Below, piece by piece: positions 8,358 through 18,251 of a DNA stretch of 52,302 nucleotides (the stretch's first letter is position 1; every line of letters starts with the position of its first letter). The position numbers were made by a program, and so were the translations under genes. The stretch covers positions 1-52,302 of the forward strand of contig VGVM01000013.1 of assembly GCA_016874035.1 (NCBI GenBank). The letters are read 5' to 3'. Below the pieces are notes generated by a model, which saw only the letters and a program-made list of their open reading frames with translations, was not told where the DNA came from and ran no database searches. The stretch is from Gemmatimonadota bacterium (GTDB lineage: Bacteria > Gemmatimonadota > Gemmatimonadetes > Gemmatimonadales > Gemmatimonadaceae).

Positions 8358-8855
8358 CTATTCCCCCTTCGGGTCGGCAGGGTCCCACATCTCGCACACC
8401 GCGTGCGACTGCGACGTCAGGCGTTCGAGGTCGTACACGAAGCGGTCGCGGCTGTACTCGGCGTTCTCGTAGTGCCGACCGACGTGGATCGCCTCTTCCG
8501 GGCACACTTCCTGGCAGTAGCCGCAGAAGATGCAGCGAAACTCGTCAATCTCGAAGACGAGCGGATAGCGATTCCCGTCCTCGTCCTCACCCGGCACCAG
8601 CTTGATGCAGTTGGCCGGGCACACGGTCGGGCAGAGTCCGCAGGCGACGCACTTCGCCTTTCCGTCTTCGGTCGTCAACATGCGGTGCGTCCCGCGCCAG
8701 CGCGGGGAGATGTCCCAACGCTCCTCAGGGTACTGCACGGTGACCTTGTGGGGGTCCACAAGGTGCTTGAAGGTCAGCGCGAGTCCCTTCACCGTCGCGC
8801 GCAGGTAGCTGACCTCGCCGACGGGACGCTCGAGCACCTTGACCTTGATCGTCAT
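8358..8855 (-). CDS. nuoI: NADH-quinone oxidoreductase subunit I (2 x 4Fe-4S)
   Basis: NuoI is the ferredoxin-like subunit that carries clusters N6a and N6b in the peripheral arm. I chose ATG 8855, which overlaps the nuoH TGA by 4 bases; the longer frame upstream is a shadow of nuoH. The protein has 165 residues. Two CxxCxxCxxxCP motifs are complete: Cys69, 72, 75, 79 and Cys108, 111, 114, 118. The conserved membrane-contact N-terminus (GLALTFKHLVDP, TVQYPEE) is also visible. Nothing is odd. Confidence 0.97.
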   Translation of the reverse strand: MTIKVKVLERPVGEVSYLRATVKGLALTFKHLVDPHKVTVQYPEERWDISPRWRGTHRMLTTEDGKAKCVACGLCPTVCPANCIKLVPGEDEDGNRYPLVFEIDEFRCIFCGYCQEVCPEEAIHVGRHYENAEYSRDRFVYDLERLTSQSHAVCEMWDPADPKGE

Positions 8856-10135
8856 GCGCCGGTTCCTCGGCCTGCCAGGTGGCTGCGGCCGGTCGCCATG
8901 GCGCGCAGGCGCTCGACGCGCGACCGGTCGAGACGTGAGTAGGCCGGGCTGATCAAGCGGCCCTTGTCGAGCACGAACAGGATACCGCCCATCAGCACCG
9001 CGTTGAGGGCGAACAGGATCGCGCCGAACATCGGGCCGCGGGCGATGCCCGCCATGTCGAGTGCCAGCACCGTCGCGGCAATCACGATCACGTACACGAG
9101 CGCCATCGGCAGCAGCACCTTCCAGCCGAGCGACATGAGCTGATCGTACCGGAAGCGCGGCAGCGTCCATCGGATCCAGATGTAGAACAGCACGAAGAGG
9201 ATCACCTTGGTCGCGAACGCGCCGAACGTAAGCAGCGCCTTGAGCACCGTGGCGTCACCGGTGTTGTCCCACTTCGTGAACGGGATGTCCCAGCCGCCAA
9301 AGAACAGCGTGGCCATCATGGCGCTCGCCGTGATCATGTTGGCGTATTCAGAGATCGGGAACATCGAGAACTTCATCGCGCTGTATTCCGTGTGGTAGCC
9401 GGCGATGAGCTCCGATTCCGCTTCGGGCAGGTCGAACGGCACGCGGTTGGTCTCCGCGAACGCGGCGATGAGGAAGATGAAAGCCGCGACGGAGAGCAGG
9501 AACGCATTCCAGCCCATCTGGGCCTGTTGCTGCACGACTTCGTTCAGCGACACGTTGCCGGCGAGCAGGAGCACGCAGACCGTACTCATCCCCATGGCGA
9601 TCTCGTAGCTGACCATCTGCGCGCTCGACCGAAGTCCGCCAAGCAACGCGTACTTGTTGTTCGACGCCCATCCCGCGAGCACGATCCCATACACACCCAG
9701 CGACGAGATGGCGAGCGTGAACAGGAAACCCACGGGAAGGTCTGCCACGACGAGGTCGATCCGTCCCCACAGCGTCGGCAGCGGCGCGCCGAACGGGATC
9801 ACCGCCCACGTCATCATGGCGGGCACGAACGCGATGCCCGGCGCGAGCACGAAGAGCGCCTTGCTGACGTACGACGGGTACGTCTCCTCCTTCATGATGT
9901 TCTTGATGCCGTCCGCGGCGACCTGGAGGATGCCCTGCGGTCCCACGCGGTTCGGACCGTGGCGATCCTGGATCCACGCCGACACGCGGCGCTCGGCGAA
10001 GGTCGAGTACGCGACGCCGACCATGTAGATCGTGAAAATCACGATCATCTTGATCACGGTCGCGATCAGGAAGACGCCGGTCGACGGCGGCAACTGCGGA
10101 TGCGGGAGCTGCAGGATCAGCGTCGGTTCGATCAT
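8852..10135 (-). CDS. nuoH: NADH-quinone oxidoreductase subunit H
   Basis: NuoH is the membrane subunit that forms the quinone-entry site and links the peripheral arm to the pumps. It is 427 residues with about eight helices. The quinone-pocket loop AERRVSAWIQDRHGPNRVG lies near residues 47-65, and the acidic loop FAETNRVPFDLPEAESEL with TEYSAM follows. The C-terminus has an extra hydrophilic tail ending in RSHLAGRGTGA. Its start overlaps the nuoG stop by 4 bases, and its stop overlaps the nuoI start by 4. Confidence 0.97.
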   Translation of the reverse strand: MIEPTLILQLPHPQLPPSTGVFLIATVIKMIVIFTIYMVGVAYSTFAERRVSAWIQDRHGPNRVGPQGILQVAADGIKNIMKEETYPSYVSKALFVLAPGIAFVPAMMTWAVIPFGAPLPTLWGRIDLVVADLPVGFLFTLAISSLGVYGIVLAGWASNNKYALLGGLRSSAQMVSYEIAMGMSTVCVLLLAGNVSLNEVVQQQAQMGWNAFLLSVAAFIFLIAAFAETNRVPFDLPEAESELIAGYHTEYSAMKFSMFPISEYANMITASAMMATLFFGGWDIPFTKWDNTGDATVLKALLTFGAFATKVILFVLFYIWIRWTLPRFRYDQLMSLGWKVLLPMALVYVIVIAATVLALDMAGIARGPMFGAILFALNAVLMGGILFVLDKGRLISPAYSRLDRSRVERLRAMATGRSHLAGRGTGA

Positions 10136-11678
10136 CGCCCCGCCCCCGCCGTGGCGCCGGCGGCGGCCGCGCCGCGGGTGCCCAGCTGGTCGAACGTCAT
10201 GCCGGCGAACGCGGCATGGGCCTTCGCCATCGCGGCAAACGCGTCGGCGGCCGTGAGGAAGTTCGCTTCACCCTTGAGCGCGATCAGGAGATCCGCCACC
10301 GCGCTCCAGGCCGGGCGGGCGTGCCCCGGGGCCGGCCGTGCCTGGAAGTAGCGTTGCACGTGCCCGCGCAGGTTGGTGACCGTGCCATCGTGCTCGGCGA
10401 TGTTCGCGATCGGCAGCACCGCCGCGGCCTTCACCCCCGCGGCAACCACCGTTCCGAGGTACACGACCCGCCCGGCTGCCGCGAGTGCGCCCGCGGGCAC
10501 CGATGCGGGGTCCACATCCACCAGCACCAGCGTGTCGCCGGCGCCCAGGCCACGGTACGGGTCATCCGCTCGAGACGCCCCGAGCAACTCGGCGCCATAC
10601 GCGTTGGCGGCGCGATCCGCGCGCAGGGCAAGGTCCTCGACGCCCGGCAGCAACGCTTCCGGGCCCTGCGGCACGGTGAACCGGACGCTTCCGCCAGTCT
10701 TCTTCGCCAGGACGCCGAGCAGGAAGAACGCCTCGTTGCCCAGCGACGCGTTCGCCACGATGTGTGCACGCTTGCCGTTGAGGGCGGACGCCGCCGCCGC
10801 GACCGCGGCATCCCAGTGACACTCGGTGCCCGCCGCCGTCGGCGCCAGGCAACGATCCTGGCGGTTCATCCAGCGGTAGTTGAGGCGGCCTTCGTCACAG
10901 ATGAAGAACGCGTTGACGTCGGGATTGCCGCGCGGCTTGATGCGCACGACGGCGTTGTCCCGCGTTTCCAGCGTGACGTTGCAACCCTGCGAGCACCCCG
11001 TGCAGATCGAGGGGGCGCGGTCGAGCTCCCACGCGCGCGCCTTGTTCAGGAAGTCCTTCGACAGCAATGCGCCCACCGGGCACAGGTCCACCACGTTCCC
11101 GGCCCAAGCCTGGGTCAGGTCCGCATCAGGCGCCTTGGCGATCACCGCCCGGTCACCACGCTCTGCCACGCACAGCGCCGACTCCTGCTGGACGTCGTCC
11201 ATGAACCGCACGCAGCGTGTGCACAGGATGCAGCGGTTCGGGACGTACAACACGTCCCCGCCGAAGTCTTCCACCGGATTGAACCGCTTCGGCTCGCGGT
11301 AGCGCGAGTCGGCGCGGCCTTCCTGGAACGTGTAGTCCTGCAGTTCGCATTCGCCGGACTGGTCGCAAATCGGGCAGTCGAGCGGATGATTGATCAGCAG
11401 CATCTCGAGCACGCCCTTGCGCGCTTCGAGCGACTTGTCGTCGTGGACGCGCACGACCTGACCTTCGGCCACGGTCGTCGCGCAGCTGGGCATGAGCTTC
11501 GGCGCCTTCTCAACATCCACCAGGCACATGCGGCAGACGCCGGCCACCGGCAGCCCCGGGTGATAGCAATAGTGGGGGATCAGCACGCCAGCGGCCTTGG
11601 CCGCCTCGAGGATCGACGTCCCGGCGGGCACGGACACCGGACGACCCTCGATCGTCAGGTTCACCATCGCCGGGGCCG

Positions 11679-11682
<4 letters not shown>
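10132..11682 (-). CDS. nuoG: NADH-quinone oxidoreductase subunit G, short form with N7 ligands
   Basis: NuoG carries the Fe-S clusters that pass electrons from NuoF/E towards NuoB. All N-terminal clusters are encoded: 2Fe-2S ligands Cys39, 50, 53, 67; N5 ligands His99, Cys103, 106, 112; N4 ligands Cys151, 154, 157, 201. A fourth set, Cys227, 230, 234 and 262 (CxxCxxxC, 27 residues, C), matches the N7 cluster found in bacterial but not mitochondrial forms. At 516 residues the protein is clearly shorter than the usual 680-900, so the molybdopterin-oxidoreductase-like domain is cut to about 250 residues with an Ala-rich end. The stop overlaps nuoH by 4 bases, so this is a natural end rather than a frameshift. 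An in-frame ATG at codon 6 is an alternative start. Confidence 0.95.
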
Positions 11683-13018
<1,336 letters not shown>

Positions 13019-13019
<1 letters not shown>

Positions 13020-13519
13020 TACTTCAACCCCGCGAGAATCTGCGGCACCTTGTCCGCCGTCACGTTCTCGATCGTGTCCGCGTTGATTTGCACCGGCGTC
13101 GCAAACCCGCAGGCGCCGAGGCACTCGACCTCGATGACCGTGTACTTGCCGTCGGGTGAGGTGACCCCCAGCTCGTTGCAGCCCGTGTGCTTCAAGAACG
13201 CCTCGGTCACCTTGTCAGCACCGGCGCAGAGGCACGGCGAGGTCGTGCAGACCTGGATGAAGTGCTTCCCGACCGGATGTTGGTGGTACATGGTGTAGAA
13301 CGTCACCACGCCCTTCACGTAGGCCGGCGTCAGGTCGAGGCACTTGGCGACCTCCGCCATGCCCTCCTCGCTGACCCACCCCTGCACTTCCTGGACGATC
13401 CAGAGCGCGGGCAGGAGCGCCGCCTGCTTGTTCGGGTAGCGAAGCAGGATGGCGTCCAGGTCGGCCTTTCGCTTGCCGACGAAGACCGCTTCGTAGGGAG
13501 CCGTGCCGTGCGCACTCAC
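13019..13519 (-). CDS. nuoE: NADH-quinone oxidoreductase subunit E (2Fe-2S, GTG start)
   Basis: NuoE is the thioredoxin-fold subunit with cluster N1a. The open frame reaches into nuoD, but the family begins around YEAVFVGKRKADLDAILLRYPNK. GTG 13519 overlaps the nuoD TGA by 4 bases (GTGA), the junction style used throughout this operon. This gives 166 residues. Cluster ligands are Cys91 and Cys96 (CTTSPC) and Cys133 and Cys137 (CLGAC), the standard pattern. The helical N-terminal domain (LLPALWIVQEVQGWV) is present. Confidence 0.95.
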
Positions 13520-14829
13520 CGGTCGATCTCTCCCATCACGATGTCGATGGATGCGTTGATCGCGATCACGTCCGAGAGCAGGTGCCCCTCGACCATCTTC
13601 GGGATCGCGGAGAGGTTCACGAAACTCGGCGGGCGAATGCGCCAACGAGCCGGCTTCGAGGAACCGTCGGACACCATGTAGTAGCCCTTCTCGCCCTTTG
13701 GGCTCTCGACCGCGACGTAGCACTCGCCGATCGGCGGGCGCGGCCCTTCCATCACGTTCTTGAAGTGATGGATCATGGATTCCATCTCGCTCGTCGCCTT
13801 GTGCTTGGGCGGGAGCACCAGGCGCGGATCGTCCACGTTCACCGGACCGTCCGGCAGGCGCTTCACCGCCTGCTCGAGGATCCGCACCGACTGCCGCATT
13901 TCTTCCACGCGTACCAGGAACCGATCGTAGACGTCGCCGTTCGTGCCCACCGGGACGTCGAAGTCGTACGTCTCGTAGTCGAGGTACGGGAAATCCTTCC
14001 GGACATCGTACGCCACGCCACTGGCCCGCAGCAGCGGGCCGGACAGCCCGTAGTTGATCGCTTCGTCCGGACTCATGACGCCGAGCCCGACGGTCCGACC
14101 GACCCAGATCGCGTTCCGCGTGAGCATGCGCTCACACTCGTCGATCGTCTTCGGGAAGGTCCGGATGAAGCCCTGCAGGCCCTCGAGCCACTTGTCCGGG
14201 ATGTCGGCCGCCATCCCGCCGACGCGTGTGGCGCTGGTCGTAAGCCGCGCACCCACCCAGCCTTCGAGCAGGTTGTAGATGTTCTCGCGTTCCTGGAAGC
14301 CCCAGAGGAACGGGGTGAACGCCCCGATATCAATGCAGGTCGTGCCCATCCACACCAGGTGCGATGCGATACGCGACAGCTCCATCGCAATGACGCGGAG
14401 GACGGTGCACCGCTCCGTGATGTCAATGGCGAACAGGCGCTCGGCGCCCAGGGCAAACGCGACGTTGTTGCCGATCGAGTTGAGGTAATCCTCGCGATCG
14501 GTCCACGGGATGATCTGGTTGTACTGTCGGTACTCACCGATCTTCTCGAAGCCGCAATGCAGGTAGCCAACGTGCGGGATGCAGCGCACCACGGTCTCGC
14601 CGTCGAGCTCGAGCACGAGGCGGAGCACTCCGTGCGTCGCCGGGTGCTGCGGCCCGATGTTGATGAGCATGTGCTCGCCTTCGAGGTCCGGCTCCAGGGC
14701 CGGAGGCGCAGCGACCGCGGTGGCCATGTCGCCGCCGACCACGAGCGGCACGCGCTGGGGCTTCCCATCCGGCGAGAGGCCGGTGGTCGACAGTTCGACC
14801 TCGACGGTGCGCGTCGTCCCGGTGGTCAT
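13516..14829 (-). CDS. nuoD: NADH-quinone oxidoreductase subunit D
   Basis: NuoD is the 49-kDa-type subunit that forms the quinone head-group site with NuoB. The start is ATG 14829, two bases after the nuoC TAG, giving 437 residues; the longer frame upstream is a shadow of nuoC. The first 45 residues are variable. The family core begins at MLINIGPQHPATHGVLRLVLELDGE, containing the quinone-site His pair, and continues through GYLHCGFEKI and the C-terminal DIVMGEIDR. NuoC and NuoD are separate here, not fused as in enterobacteria. Confidence 0.97.
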   Translation of the reverse strand: MTTGTTRTVEVELSTTGLSPDGKPQRVPLVVGGDMATAVAAPPALEPDLEGEHMLINIGPQHPATHGVLRLVLELDGETVVRCIPHVGYLHCGFEKIGEYRQYNQIIPWTDREDYLNSIGNNVAFALGAERLFAIDITERCTVLRVIAMELSRIASHLVWMGTTCIDIGAFTPFLWGFQERENIYNLLEGWVGARLTTSATRVGGMAADIPDKWLEGLQGFIRTFPKTIDECERMLTRNAIWVGRTVGLGVMSPDEAINYGLSGPLLRASGVAYDVRKDFPYLDYETYDFDVPVGTNGDVYDRFLVRVEEMRQSVRILEQAVKRLPDGPVNVDDPRLVLPPKHKATSEMESMIHHFKNVMEGPRPPIGECYVAVESPKGEKGYYMVSDGSSKPARWRIRPPSFVNLSAIPKMVEGHLLSDVIAINASIDIVMGEIDR

Positions 14830-14831
14830 CG

Positions 14832-15527
14832 CTATTCGCCCGTCTTCTCGCCGGACGCGAGCCGGCGCCGCATGTCGGCGGGAAGTTCCTCGAACGCGTC
14901 GGCGATCGAGAGTTCCTCCATCGAGTACCGGGCCTCGGGATTGGCGGCGAGCGCATTCCGGAGCTGCTCCGAACGACTCAGGCGACCGCGCAGCGGAAAG
15001 TCCTTTCGCAGCGGGAAGCCTTCGCGGTACTGCTCCCACAGCAGGATGCGCCGCAAGTCCGGGTGGCCGACAAACTCGATGCCGAACATGTCGTAGCACT
15101 CGCGCTCGAGCCAATCCGCGGCCTTGTAGATGTCCCACACGCTCGGCACCGACAGCGCGGTCCCCTTCGGCAACTCGACCTTGACCCGGATGAACCGGCG
15201 GAACCGGAGCGAGCGCAGGTGCCAGACCACCTCGATCGGCCGCGCCAGCTCGCGATGCTCAACGGCCGTCACGTCGCTCAGGTACTCGTAGGATTCCCCG
15301 GCATCGTCGTGCAGCCACTGGATCACGTCGTGGACGAGCGCCGCGCGTACCGTCACTGCCGTCTCGCCGCGGGACACCGCCGTATGCGTGACGCCGCCCG
15401 GAAAGCGACGCTCGATCGCGGCGGCGCTCGGGTTCACCGGCCCGCCATGGGCCGGAACGCGCTTCGGCGTCGCCGGCGTCGCGTCGGCACCGGTGCCCGG
15501 ATAGACGATCGTGAACGGCGCAGTCAT
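14832..15527 (-). CDS. nuoC: NADH-quinone oxidoreductase subunit C
   Basis: NuoC is the 30-kDa-type structural subunit of the peripheral arm. It is 231 residues. The conserved core is in [13 protein letters not shown], the [12 protein letters not shown] strand, [24 protein letters not shown] (here [14 protein letters not shown]) and [14 protein letters not shown] Pro/Ala-rich N-terminus of about 35 residues and a polar C-terminal extension of about 40 residues flank it. It starts 5 bases after nuoB and ends 2 bases before nuoD. Confidence 0.96.
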
Positions 15528-15532
15528 GAACG

Positions 15533-16189
15533 CTACGGCGCCGATCGTGTCTGGTGCACCGAGTTCCCGAAGGGCTCGGACAGTTCGTCGATGCGGGACG
15601 GCGGGATGTACAGCTTGCTCGCGGGGTCCGGCGTCATCTCATCGCGAAGGCGGGGATCGGCGTTGCGCTCGTTCATCACCTTCTTCTGCAGCATCATGAT
15701 GCCGTAGATGAGCCCCTCAGGGCGCGGCGGGCAACCGGGGACGTACACGTCCACCGGGATGATGGTATCGATGCCCTGCACGACCGCGTAGCTGTCGAAC
15801 ATCCCGCCGCTCGACGCGCAGGCGCCCATCGAAATCGCCCATTTCGGTTGCGTCATCTGCTGCCAGATCCGACGCAGCACGGGCGCGAGCTTGAACGGCA
15901 CGCGTCCCGCGCAGATCAGCACGTCGCTCTGGCGTGGCGAGAACGCCATCCGTTCCATGCCAAACCGCGCGAGATCGTACTTGCTCGCCGCGCTGGCCAT
16001 GAACTCGATCGCGCAGCACGCCGTCCCGAACGGCATCGGCCATAGCGAGTTGGCGCGCCCCCAGTTGACGACGAAGTCGAGCTTCGTCGTGACCCAGGGT
16101 TCTCCCGGGCGCGCATCGAAGGCCTTCAGCGTCCCACCAAGGTCGGCGGTGGCGCCGTTCGTCCCGATATCCGGCGTGCTCAATCCCAT
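15533..16189 (-). CDS. nuoB: NADH-quinone oxidoreductase subunit B (cluster N2)
   Basis: NuoB holds N2, the last Fe-S cluster before quinone. I choose ATG 16189 (MGLSTPDIG, 218 residues) over the ATG seven codons upstream: it has a good ribosome site (AAGGGGG) and overlaps the nuoA end by 10 bases. N2 ligands are Cys58 and Cys59 ([10 protein letters not shown]), Cys124 (GACASSGG) and Cys153 (VPGCPPRPE). The N-terminal 25 residues and about 45 C-terminal residues are variable extensions. Confidence 0.97.
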
Positions 16190-16584
16190 TCGAGCGCCCC
16201 CTTCTTCCACACATAGATGAACCCGACGAACAGGATCACCATGAACACGACCATTTCAGCCAGGCCGAAAAAGGACGCCTGGCCCGCCGGGCACGCGCCG
16301 GCGACGAGTGGCACCGCGCAGGTGAGCTGCTGGTAGTACGCAGCCCACGGAATCATGAACACGGTTTCGATGTCGAAGACGATGAAGAGCATCGCCACGA
16401 TGTAGAACTTGACGCTGAACCGCTCCCGCGCATCGCCCAGCGGCGTGATGCCGGATTCGTACGGGATGTTCTTTTCCGGCGTCGGCCGCCAGCGCATCGT
16501 GAAGTGCGAGAGGCCAAGCATCCCCACGGCGTTTGCGACGACAAACCCGAGGAGGAGGAGTACCGGAAGGTAGGTGCGATCCAT
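16180..16584 (-). CDS. nuoA: NADH-quinone oxidoreductase subunit A
   Basis: NuoA is the first gene of the operon and encodes a three-helix membrane subunit of complex I. It is 134 residues. Helices lie near residues 6-28, 60-83 and 103-126. The family motif [20 protein letters not shown] and the acidic helix [14 protein letters not shown] are intact. A short insert with two cysteines ([14 protein letters not shown]) between helices 2 and 3 is not general in the family. The ATG has only weak purine-rich upstream sequence. Promoter and palindrome lie directly upstream. Confidence 0.96.
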
Positions 16585-16599: not shown

Positions 16600-16617
16600 T
16601 CGTGAAACATTTCACGA
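16600..16617. promoter_or_regulatory. Rex-like operator in the nuo leader
   Basis: TCGTGAAA-CA-TTTCACGA on the plus strand is a perfect 8-base inverted repeat around two bases. It fits the published Rex operator pattern TTGTGAA-N4-TTCACAA at all positions except the symmetric second base (C/G instead of T/A). Rex senses the NADH/NAD+ ratio and is known to repress nuo in Streptomyces. The site lies between the predicted nuo transcription start and the nuoA ATG, a position suited to repression. It also fits GTGA-N6-TCAC of CRP-family sites, so the regulator is inferred. No regulator gene is in the window. Confidence 0.62.
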
Positions 16618-16626
16618 ACGGCGGGT

Positions 16627-16656
16627 AAGCTATTGGGCGGGTCGAACTTGTGTCAA
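16627..16656 (-). promoter_or_regulatory. Putative sigma70-type promoter of nuoA-N
   Basis: Reading the minus strand, a perfect -35 TTGACA at 16656-16651 is followed after 18 bases by TAGCTT at 16632-16627. The -10 is weak against TATAAT but resembles the other candidate -10 boxes in this window. Predicted start near 16620 would give a leader of about 35 bases containing the palindrome at 16600-16617. Confidence 0.55.
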
Positions 16657-16676: not shown

Positions 16677-18251
16677 TTAGAAGCGCTCCGGGCTCGCCGC
16701 CTCCCACACGCGGGCAAGCATGCCCGTCACCCTCGGCCCGGACAGCTCGCCCGGCTGCACGGAGGGGTAGATACTGGCGTAGCTTAGCGTCTCGAGCGGG
16801 CTCACGCGCCGCATGACGTACCACGGTTTGAGGTCTCCGGGGCGCCGTAACCCCGCCGCCCCGAGCACCTCGAAGAACGAGTGCACGGTCTCGCGGTGGT
16901 ACCGCGCGACGCGCTGCGCCTTGTCGCCCACGTGCAGGCCCGCAACCAATTCCGGATTCTGCGTCGCGACGCCCGTCGGGCAATGGTTGCTGTTGCAGCG
17001 CAGCGCCTGGATACAGCCGAGCGCGAACATCATGGCCCGCGCGGCGCTGCACATGTCTGCGCCAAGCGCCGCCTTCGTCGCCATGGCGAACCCGGTGTTC
17101 ACCTTGCCGCTCGCGATGATACGAATCCGGTCGCGCACCTCCGCCCCGACCAAGGCGTTGTGCACGAACGACAGTCCGTCGTTCAGCGGCGTGCCGACGA
17201 AATCCGAGAACTCCGGTGGCGCCGCGCCCGTGCCGCCCTCGCCGCCGTCAACCGTGATGAAATCCGGCGTGATGCCGGTCTGCAGCATCGCCTTCACGAT
17301 CCCCAGGAACTCGTGGCGCTTGCCGACACAGAGCTTGAATCCGACCGGCTTGCCGCCGCTCAGGTCGCGGAGCCGTTTCACGAACTCCAGGAGGCCGCGC
17401 GGCGACGAAAACGCGGAGTGCGCCGGCGGCGAGATCACGTCCTTGCCGAGCGGAACGCCGCGAATTTCCGCGATCTCCGGCGTGAGCTTCTTTGCCGGCA
17501 GGATCCCGCCGTGCCCCGGCTTCGCGCCCTGGGACAGCTTGATCTCGATCATCCGCACGTTTGGAAGCGCCGCCCGCTGCGCGAACGCCTCGTCGTTGAA
17601 ACGCCCGGCCGCATCGCGGCAGCTGAAATAGCCCGTCCCGATCTGCCAGATCAGGTCGCCACCCGGCTCGAGATGGTACTGGCTCAACCCGCCCTCGCCG
17701 GTAGAGTGCGCGAAGTTGCCGAGCTTGGCTCCCCGGTTCAACGCGAGCACCGCGTTCTTGCTCAGCGAGCCGTAGCTCATCCCGCTCACATTGAAGATCG
17801 AGGCCGCGTACGGCTGCTTGCAGTCCGGCCCCCCGACGACCGTGCGAGCCGCGGTAAGATCCGGTTCGGCCGGCGCCAGCGAGTGGTTGATCCACTCGTA
17901 TCCGGTGGCGTACACGTCGCGCTGGGTGCCGAACGGCAGCGTGTCGAGTTCGCCCTTCGCCCGTTGGTACACCACCGAACGATCATTGCGACTGAAGGGT
18001 TTCCCGTCGCTGTTCGACTCCACGAAGTACTGGTTGATCTCGGGGCGGATCATCTCGAGCAGGTAGCGCCCATGTCCCACCAGCGGGAAGTTGCGGCGCA
18101 CGGCGTGACGGGTCTGCGTCATGTCGCTGACGCCAAGGGCGACCAGCGGCAGCACGATGGCCAGGCCCCAATACGCCGCCGGCCAGAACCAGCCGGCAGC
18201 CAGCACGGCGACAACGGCGACCGACGCGCCGATTACGAAGCGTGTTCGCAT
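16677..18251 (-). CDS. Membrane-anchored FMN-binding glutamate-synthase-like protein
   Basis: The 524-residue protein holds the FMN/3Fe-4S synthase domain of the glutamate synthase large subunit, without the glutaminase domain and without the beta-helix domain. Two hydrophobic helices at about 6-21 and 26-42 should anchor it in the membrane. Family signatures are FNVSGMSYGSLSKNAV, HSTGEGGLSQYH, IEIKLSQGAKPGHGG, the active-loop DFITVDGGEGGTGAAPPEF, and a CX5CX4C cluster motif ending HCPTGVATQ. Stand-alone proteins of this type (YerD-like) are widespread but their reaction is not settled. It lies 92 bases upstream of nuoA on the same strand, separated by the nuo promoter. Confidence 0.88.
   Translation of the reverse strand: MRTRFVIGASVAVVAVLAAGWFWPAAYWGLAIVLPLVALGVSDMTQTRHAVRRNFPLVGHGRYLLEMIRPEINQYFVESNSDGKPFSRNDRSVVYQRAKGELDTLPFGTQRDVYATGYEWINHSLAPAEPDLTAARTVVGGPDCKQPYAASIFNVSGMSYGSLSKNAVLALNRGAKLGNFAHSTGEGGLSQYHLEPGGDLIWQIGTGYFSCRDAAGRFNDEAFAQRAALPNVRMIEIKLSQGAKPGHGGILPAKKLTPEIAEIRGVPLGKDVISPPAHSAFSSPRGLLEFVKRLRDLSGGKPVGFKLCVGKRHEFLGIVKAMLQTGITPDFITVDGGEGGTGAAPPEFSDFVGTPLNDGLSFVHNALVGAEVRDRIRIIASGKVNTGFAMATKAALGADMCSAARAMMFALGCIQALRCNSNHCPTGVATQNPELVAGLHVGDKAQRVARYHRETVHSFFEVLGAAGLRRPGDLKPWYVMRRVSPLETLSYASIYPSVQPGELSGPRVTGMLARVWEAASPERF

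Follow-up and report, generated by a model that had tools for sequence, protein, structure and literature searches.

A predicted Rex-type operator between the nuo promoter and nuoA in Gemmatimonadota

Which protein acts through the inverted repeat that immediately precedes nuoA at this locus? The window, i.e. the whole stretch of DNA analysed here (52,302 nucleotides), carries a nuo (complex I) operon on its minus strand, and the palindrome TCGTGAAA-CA-TTTCACGA occupies positions 16600-16617, 15 bp before the nuoA ATG. The initial annotation had placed this palindrome just downstream of the predicted nuo transcription start and assigned it to the repressor Rex, with the caveat that CRP-family proteins bind similar sites. 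The palindrome and its coordinates match the sequence exactly, and that observation is confirmed. The features of the locus are as follows.

16600..16617, no strand (palindrome): predicted Rex-type operator TCGTGAAACATTTCACGA, with its gene-proximal half TTCACGA on the minus strand; based on sequence and on conservation before nuoA in relatives
16651..16656, minus strand: -35 element TTGACA of the predicted nuo promoter; from sequence, kept in relatives
16627..16632, minus strand: -10 element TAGCTT of the same predicted promoter, 18-nt spacer; from sequence, kept in relatives
16619..16620, minus strand: predicted nuo transcription start, deduced from the -10 element
16180..16584, minus strand: nuoA, first gene of the operon; NCBIfam NADH-quinone oxidoreductase subunit A
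15533..16210, minus strand: nuoB; profile match
14832..15527, minus strand: nuoC; Pfam Complex1_30kDa
8358..15138, minus strand: nuoD, E, F, G, H and I in order; Pfam and ORFs, approximate bounds
After nuoI to about 2197, minus strand: further ORFs; ORF list
16677..18251, minus strand: upstream neighbour, a glutamate-synthase-like FMN domain protein; Pfam Glu_synthase, outside the system

The site reads TCGTGAA-N4-TTCACGA (its bases are numbered 1 to 18 below). Relative to the Rex operator consensus, TTGTGAA-N4-TTCACAA, the GTGAA-N4-TTCAC core and the 4-base spacer are exact and one outer base is off on each side, just as the initial annotation had described. It is the sole match to the motif with up to three mismatches in the window, where 0.09 are expected. 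Perfect 8+8 palindromes with a two-base centre occur twice in the window, at 67% G+C, and we dropped palindrome rarity alone as evidence. The significance of the site comes instead from its specific GTGAA-N4-TTCAC core and the conservation of that core, not from the palindrome as such.

On the minus strand, the order of elements is TTGACA-N18-TAGCTT-ACCCGCCGT-operator, and the operator extends from about +3 to +21, in agreement with the position proposed earlier. A generic promoter scan did not report TTGACA-18-TAGCTT, since its -10 element matches at only 3 of 6 positions. Relatives have TTGACAC...TAACTT/TAAGTT at the equivalent place before nuoA, TAGTTT being a further variant of their -10 element. 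Their operators start 7-33 bp after the -10, mostly at 9-17 bp (68 of 103 nuo sites).

Conservation of the site before nuoA extends to nearly all members of the family and to many of the order; by comparison with named genomes, the family is Gemmatimonadaceae, of Gemmatimonadota. The core is perfect in 84 of 91 distinct same-family sequences; the full 10 bases are present in 98 of 114 distinct sequences upstream of nuoA, and five more keep 9 of the 10. At the order level, most members of family f2 have the nuo site. Family f3 has none, though rex is present, and one rex-carrying genome (G015) has a nuo operator decayed to TCGTGGTGTTTTGCACGA. Two genomes of genus g64 (family f7) carry TCGTGAAAAATTTCACAA 94-95 bp before nuoA.

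The presence of a Rex homologue had been proposed as a check on the assignment, and a profile search of the whole genome to which the window belongs (3.08 Mb, completeness 99.5%) found exactly one Rex gene, at C12:7181-7807. Its product scores 65.9 bits with Pfam PF06971 and 245.8 bits with NCBIfam NF003995 over residues 2-208, and it exceeds the cut-offs of several NCBIfam Rex models. Profiles and alignment to 2dt5 identify a winged-helix N-terminal domain and a C-terminal Rossmann NAD(H) domain, whose GxGxxG nucleotide loop is kept as GAGKIG. The recognition helix and wing nearly match those of Thermus Rex (T-Rex) residue for residue in the 2dt5/3ikt alignment. A perfect TTGTGAAATCATTCACAA (TTGTGAA-N4-TTCACAA) occupies C12:7826-7843 and precedes the aligned Rex start by 18 bp. 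Across rex promoters, the full core is present in 50 of 53, and 39 of those 50 match the full consensus in their outer bases as well (TT..AA).

We searched the 3.08-Mb genome for TTGTGAA-N4-TTCACAA with up to two mismatches, using the reversed motif as a control. Six sites were obtained, against none for the control, and they precede mostly respiratory genes: rex, nuoA, an operon for a QrcA/ActA-like haem protein, a cupredoxin gene, atpA and clpX. The haem-protein operon (G000:C91:1-2891), led by the Rex-type site ATGTGAAATTGTTCACAA, codes for a multihaem cytochrome and then a molybdopterin-like protein. Their nearest models are QrcA and QrcB, though with scores below cut-off, and on this basis we named the operon an Act/Qrc-type quinol-oxidising complex. 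The nearest model of the cupredoxin is plastocyanin, with a score below its cut-off. The site TTGTGATATTTTTCACAA (G000:C24:22979-22996) lies before the ATP synthase genes atpA-atpG, and that of clpX (G000:C8:45894-45911) is in the clpP-clpX gap, before clpX. The initial annotation had expected the motif before other redox genes, namely cyd, ldh, adh or hemA. It is indeed found before rex and further redox genes, but none of the six strong sites of the host genome (up to two mismatches) precedes any of those four; its partners are the Act/Qrc-type complex, the cupredoxin, the ATP synthase and clpX. With one mismatch, TNGTGAANNNNTTCACNA had 12 matches in the genome and 3 in the control. The broader pattern YCGTGAANNNNTTCACGR with two mismatches gave 132 and 21, respectively; most of these matches have no full A7/T12 core, and this pattern was set aside as uninformative.

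Recurring targets among the sites fetched from relatives are the QrcA-like gene (n=8), clpX (n=6) and the cupredoxin gene (n=1), together with rex and nuoA. In one relative (G006), a coxB-type gene, for subunit II of cytochrome c oxidase, follows TAGTGAAAAACTTCACGA at a distance of 17 bp; a second such case, in G012, is assigned from an ORF that has the same length and lies equally far from its site.

As a side observation, Rex-type sites are located 82-146 bp before clpX in relatives belonging to several genera. They suggest that clpX is a Rex target, with redox control of the ClpX unfoldase. Genomes of genus g64 mostly contain 5-20 exact Rex-type sites each, versus 0-7 elsewhere in the class; the Rex regulon is apparently expanded in that genus. 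The g64 genome G065 has 19 sites, for which simple ORF picking gave few clear downstream genes.

The outer bases of the nuo operators differ from those of the rex promoters. Most nuo operators read TNGTGAA...TTCACGA: G17 is present in 93% of nuo sites versus 6% of rex sites (Fisher p about 4e-28, phylogeny ignored), and T2 in 15% versus 86% (Fisher p below 1e-17, likewise ignoring phylogeny). Like the Rex consensus, the nuo sites have A7 and T12, each conserved in 96-100% of them. Rex is still compatible with the nuo outer base, because the rex promoters of family f3, which read TCGTGAATTCCTTCACGA, have the same TCGTGAA/TTCACGA variant as the host nuo site, and Streptomyces avermitilis Rex footprints the variant-bearing TTGTGATACGGTTCACGA at atp, a site that ends in TTCACGA (PMC5355995). 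The Thermotoga maritima Rex complex shows a minor-groove contact to O2 of the thymine that precedes the half-site's first G (PMC8836258). A cytosine in its place also offers an O2, and the contact could hold at the nuo site. With Staphylococcus aureus Rex, operator mismatches lower affinity and need not abolish binding (PMC2883068). The simplest reading of the nuo outer base would be a conserved, weaker Rex operator.

We also compared the occurrence of sites with that of rex. Within the family, rex carriers have 3.7 sites on average and rex-less genomes 1.0 (Mann-Whitney p about 8e-5, phylogeny ignored), a comparison that is partly circular because the loss of rex also removes the rex-promoter site. 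The sole rex-less genome of g64 (G190) has no site, versus mostly 5-20 in the rex carriers of that genus. Among the rex-less genomes of the order in which nuoA was found, the nuo site is lost or decayed in four (G029, G059, G160 and G278) and kept in three (G136, G266 and G283), a comparison that is only suggestive, since draft genomes may miss genes. G136 is 99% complete. The assemblies that keep the nuo site either lack a rex gene that the organism has or come from organisms in which the site serves a different protein.

The main rival to Rex is a CRP-like protein. A member of the CRP/FNR family would bind GTGA-N6-TCAC instead of Rex and repress nuo from downstream of the promoter. The caveat of the initial annotation was fair in this respect: the site fits that pattern, and the genome has one CRP-family gene (G000:C99:5032-5238) whose product has the recognition helix SRETVSR, close to the SRETVGR of CRP. 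Any Rex site also fits TGTGA-N6-TCACA, and the rex-less assemblies that keep the nuo site are compatible with such a protein. However, the conserved A7 and T12 of the nuo sites are Rex-like, unlike the Escherichia coli CRP consensus, whose half-site is GTGATC without conserved A7/T12. The motif is also found before rex itself, and site numbers in the family follow the presence of rex. Finally, the position of the site, downstream of the start, is not that at which CRP activates, i.e. upstream of or overlapping the -35 element. We consider it very unlikely that a CRP-like protein takes the place of Rex at this site. Both proteins might use it, the conserved G17 keeping it readable by each. The uneven occurrence of G17 in nuo and rex sites and the presence of the CRP-like protein agree with such a dual use, but a tuned, weaker Rex site accounts for the same G17 pattern, and we regard sharing of the site as unlikely.

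Alternatively, the palindrome might function in the nuoA leader RNA as a hairpin, since it is downstream of the predicted start and has the potential to pair over 7 bp around a loop of 4 bases. We rejected this explanation, which appears highly implausible, because the outer positions fail to pair: of 103 sites, 43 have unpairable bases at positions 2 and 17, mostly A-G and C-A, and 20 have them at positions 1 and 18. The core hardly varies and hence offers no covariation in support of a stem, and the motif is shared by several unrelated promoters. As for a chance palindrome, the window does contain two of the 8+8 type, but 84 of 91 distinct family sequences conserve the site at the same place and the motif recurs before rex, which makes coincidence a negligible prospect.

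Thus, the palindrome at 16600-16617 is very probably the operator through which the NADH/NAD+-sensing repressor Rex would control the nuo operon. We observed the palindrome, a rex gene, the motif that the two promoters have in common, its conservation in relatives and the genes that it precedes, and the Rex interpretation of the initial annotation is supported by the rex gene, by the motif before rex and redox genes and by conservation before nuoA. By analogy with known Rex systems, we infer Rex binding, nuo repression and a response to NADH. With little NADH present, a Rex dimer, NAD+-bound or free, would sit just downstream of the nuo start and block RNA polymerase. Accumulating NADH would bind Rex and release it from the operator; complex I would then be made and NADH re-oxidised. 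Rex would in this manner govern a small, self-regulated regulon over the respiratory chain, comprising rex, nuo, the Act/Qrc-type complex, the cupredoxin, the ATP synthase and clpX. We tentatively put forward a more specific proposal, which is possible but has less than even chances. Gemmatimonadota Rex would control a compact regulon that runs from complex I via the Act/Qrc-type complex and cupredoxin to ATP synthase, plus clpX, and the nuo operator would be held below consensus throughout the family (G17, and C or A at position 2), such that complex I is derepressed at lower NADH than rex.

Two points depart from the textbook picture and are modestly surprising, namely the non-consensus outer base kept by the nuo operators and clpX as an apparent Rex target. 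Judged by title and abstract, none of the ten listed papers that mention Rex, redox sensing and clpX describes a Rex site at clpX. Similarly, we found no published Rex study in Gemmatimonadota in a search that covered few subscription journals and is weak evidence of novelty. With the predicted operator, aerobic respiration in this widespread, poorly studied phylum gains a candidate redox regulator that can be put to the test. In addition, the about 100 orthologous operators represent a natural set for measuring the tuning of Rex affinity, and the site at clpX is a hint that protein turnover may be coupled to the NADH state.

Several known systems resemble the one described here. CRP sites, TGTGA-N6-TCACA, share the GTGA-N6-TCAC spacing and differ in A7/T12 and in their activating position. 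T-Rex (2dt5, 3ikt), from another phylum and compared by protein only, is the closest solved relative, with a nearly identical recognition helix and wing. The S. aureus Rex operator, TTGTGAAW4TTCACAA, has a core identical to that of the Gemmatimonadota site, but S. aureus Rex targets fermentation and nitrate/nitrite genes, nuo being absent from that report (PMC2883068). S. avermitilis Rex represses nuo, atp, cyd and rex (PMC5355995). The likeness to that system comprises the motif core, a site before rex and Rex sites at nuo and ATP synthase (predicted in our case), the atp site ending in TTCACGA (PMC5355995). In contrast, the nuo operator of S. avermitilis overlies the promoter from -35 to -10, and its rex is co-transcribed with hem genes (PMC5355995). 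The host nuo operator is just downstream of the start, and the host set includes the Act/Qrc-type complex, the cupredoxin and clpX. Unlike in S. avermitilis, no cyd site was found in the host genome. The nuo operator of this Gemmatimonadota bacterium is almost certainly a strongly conserved new example of the known Rex operators.
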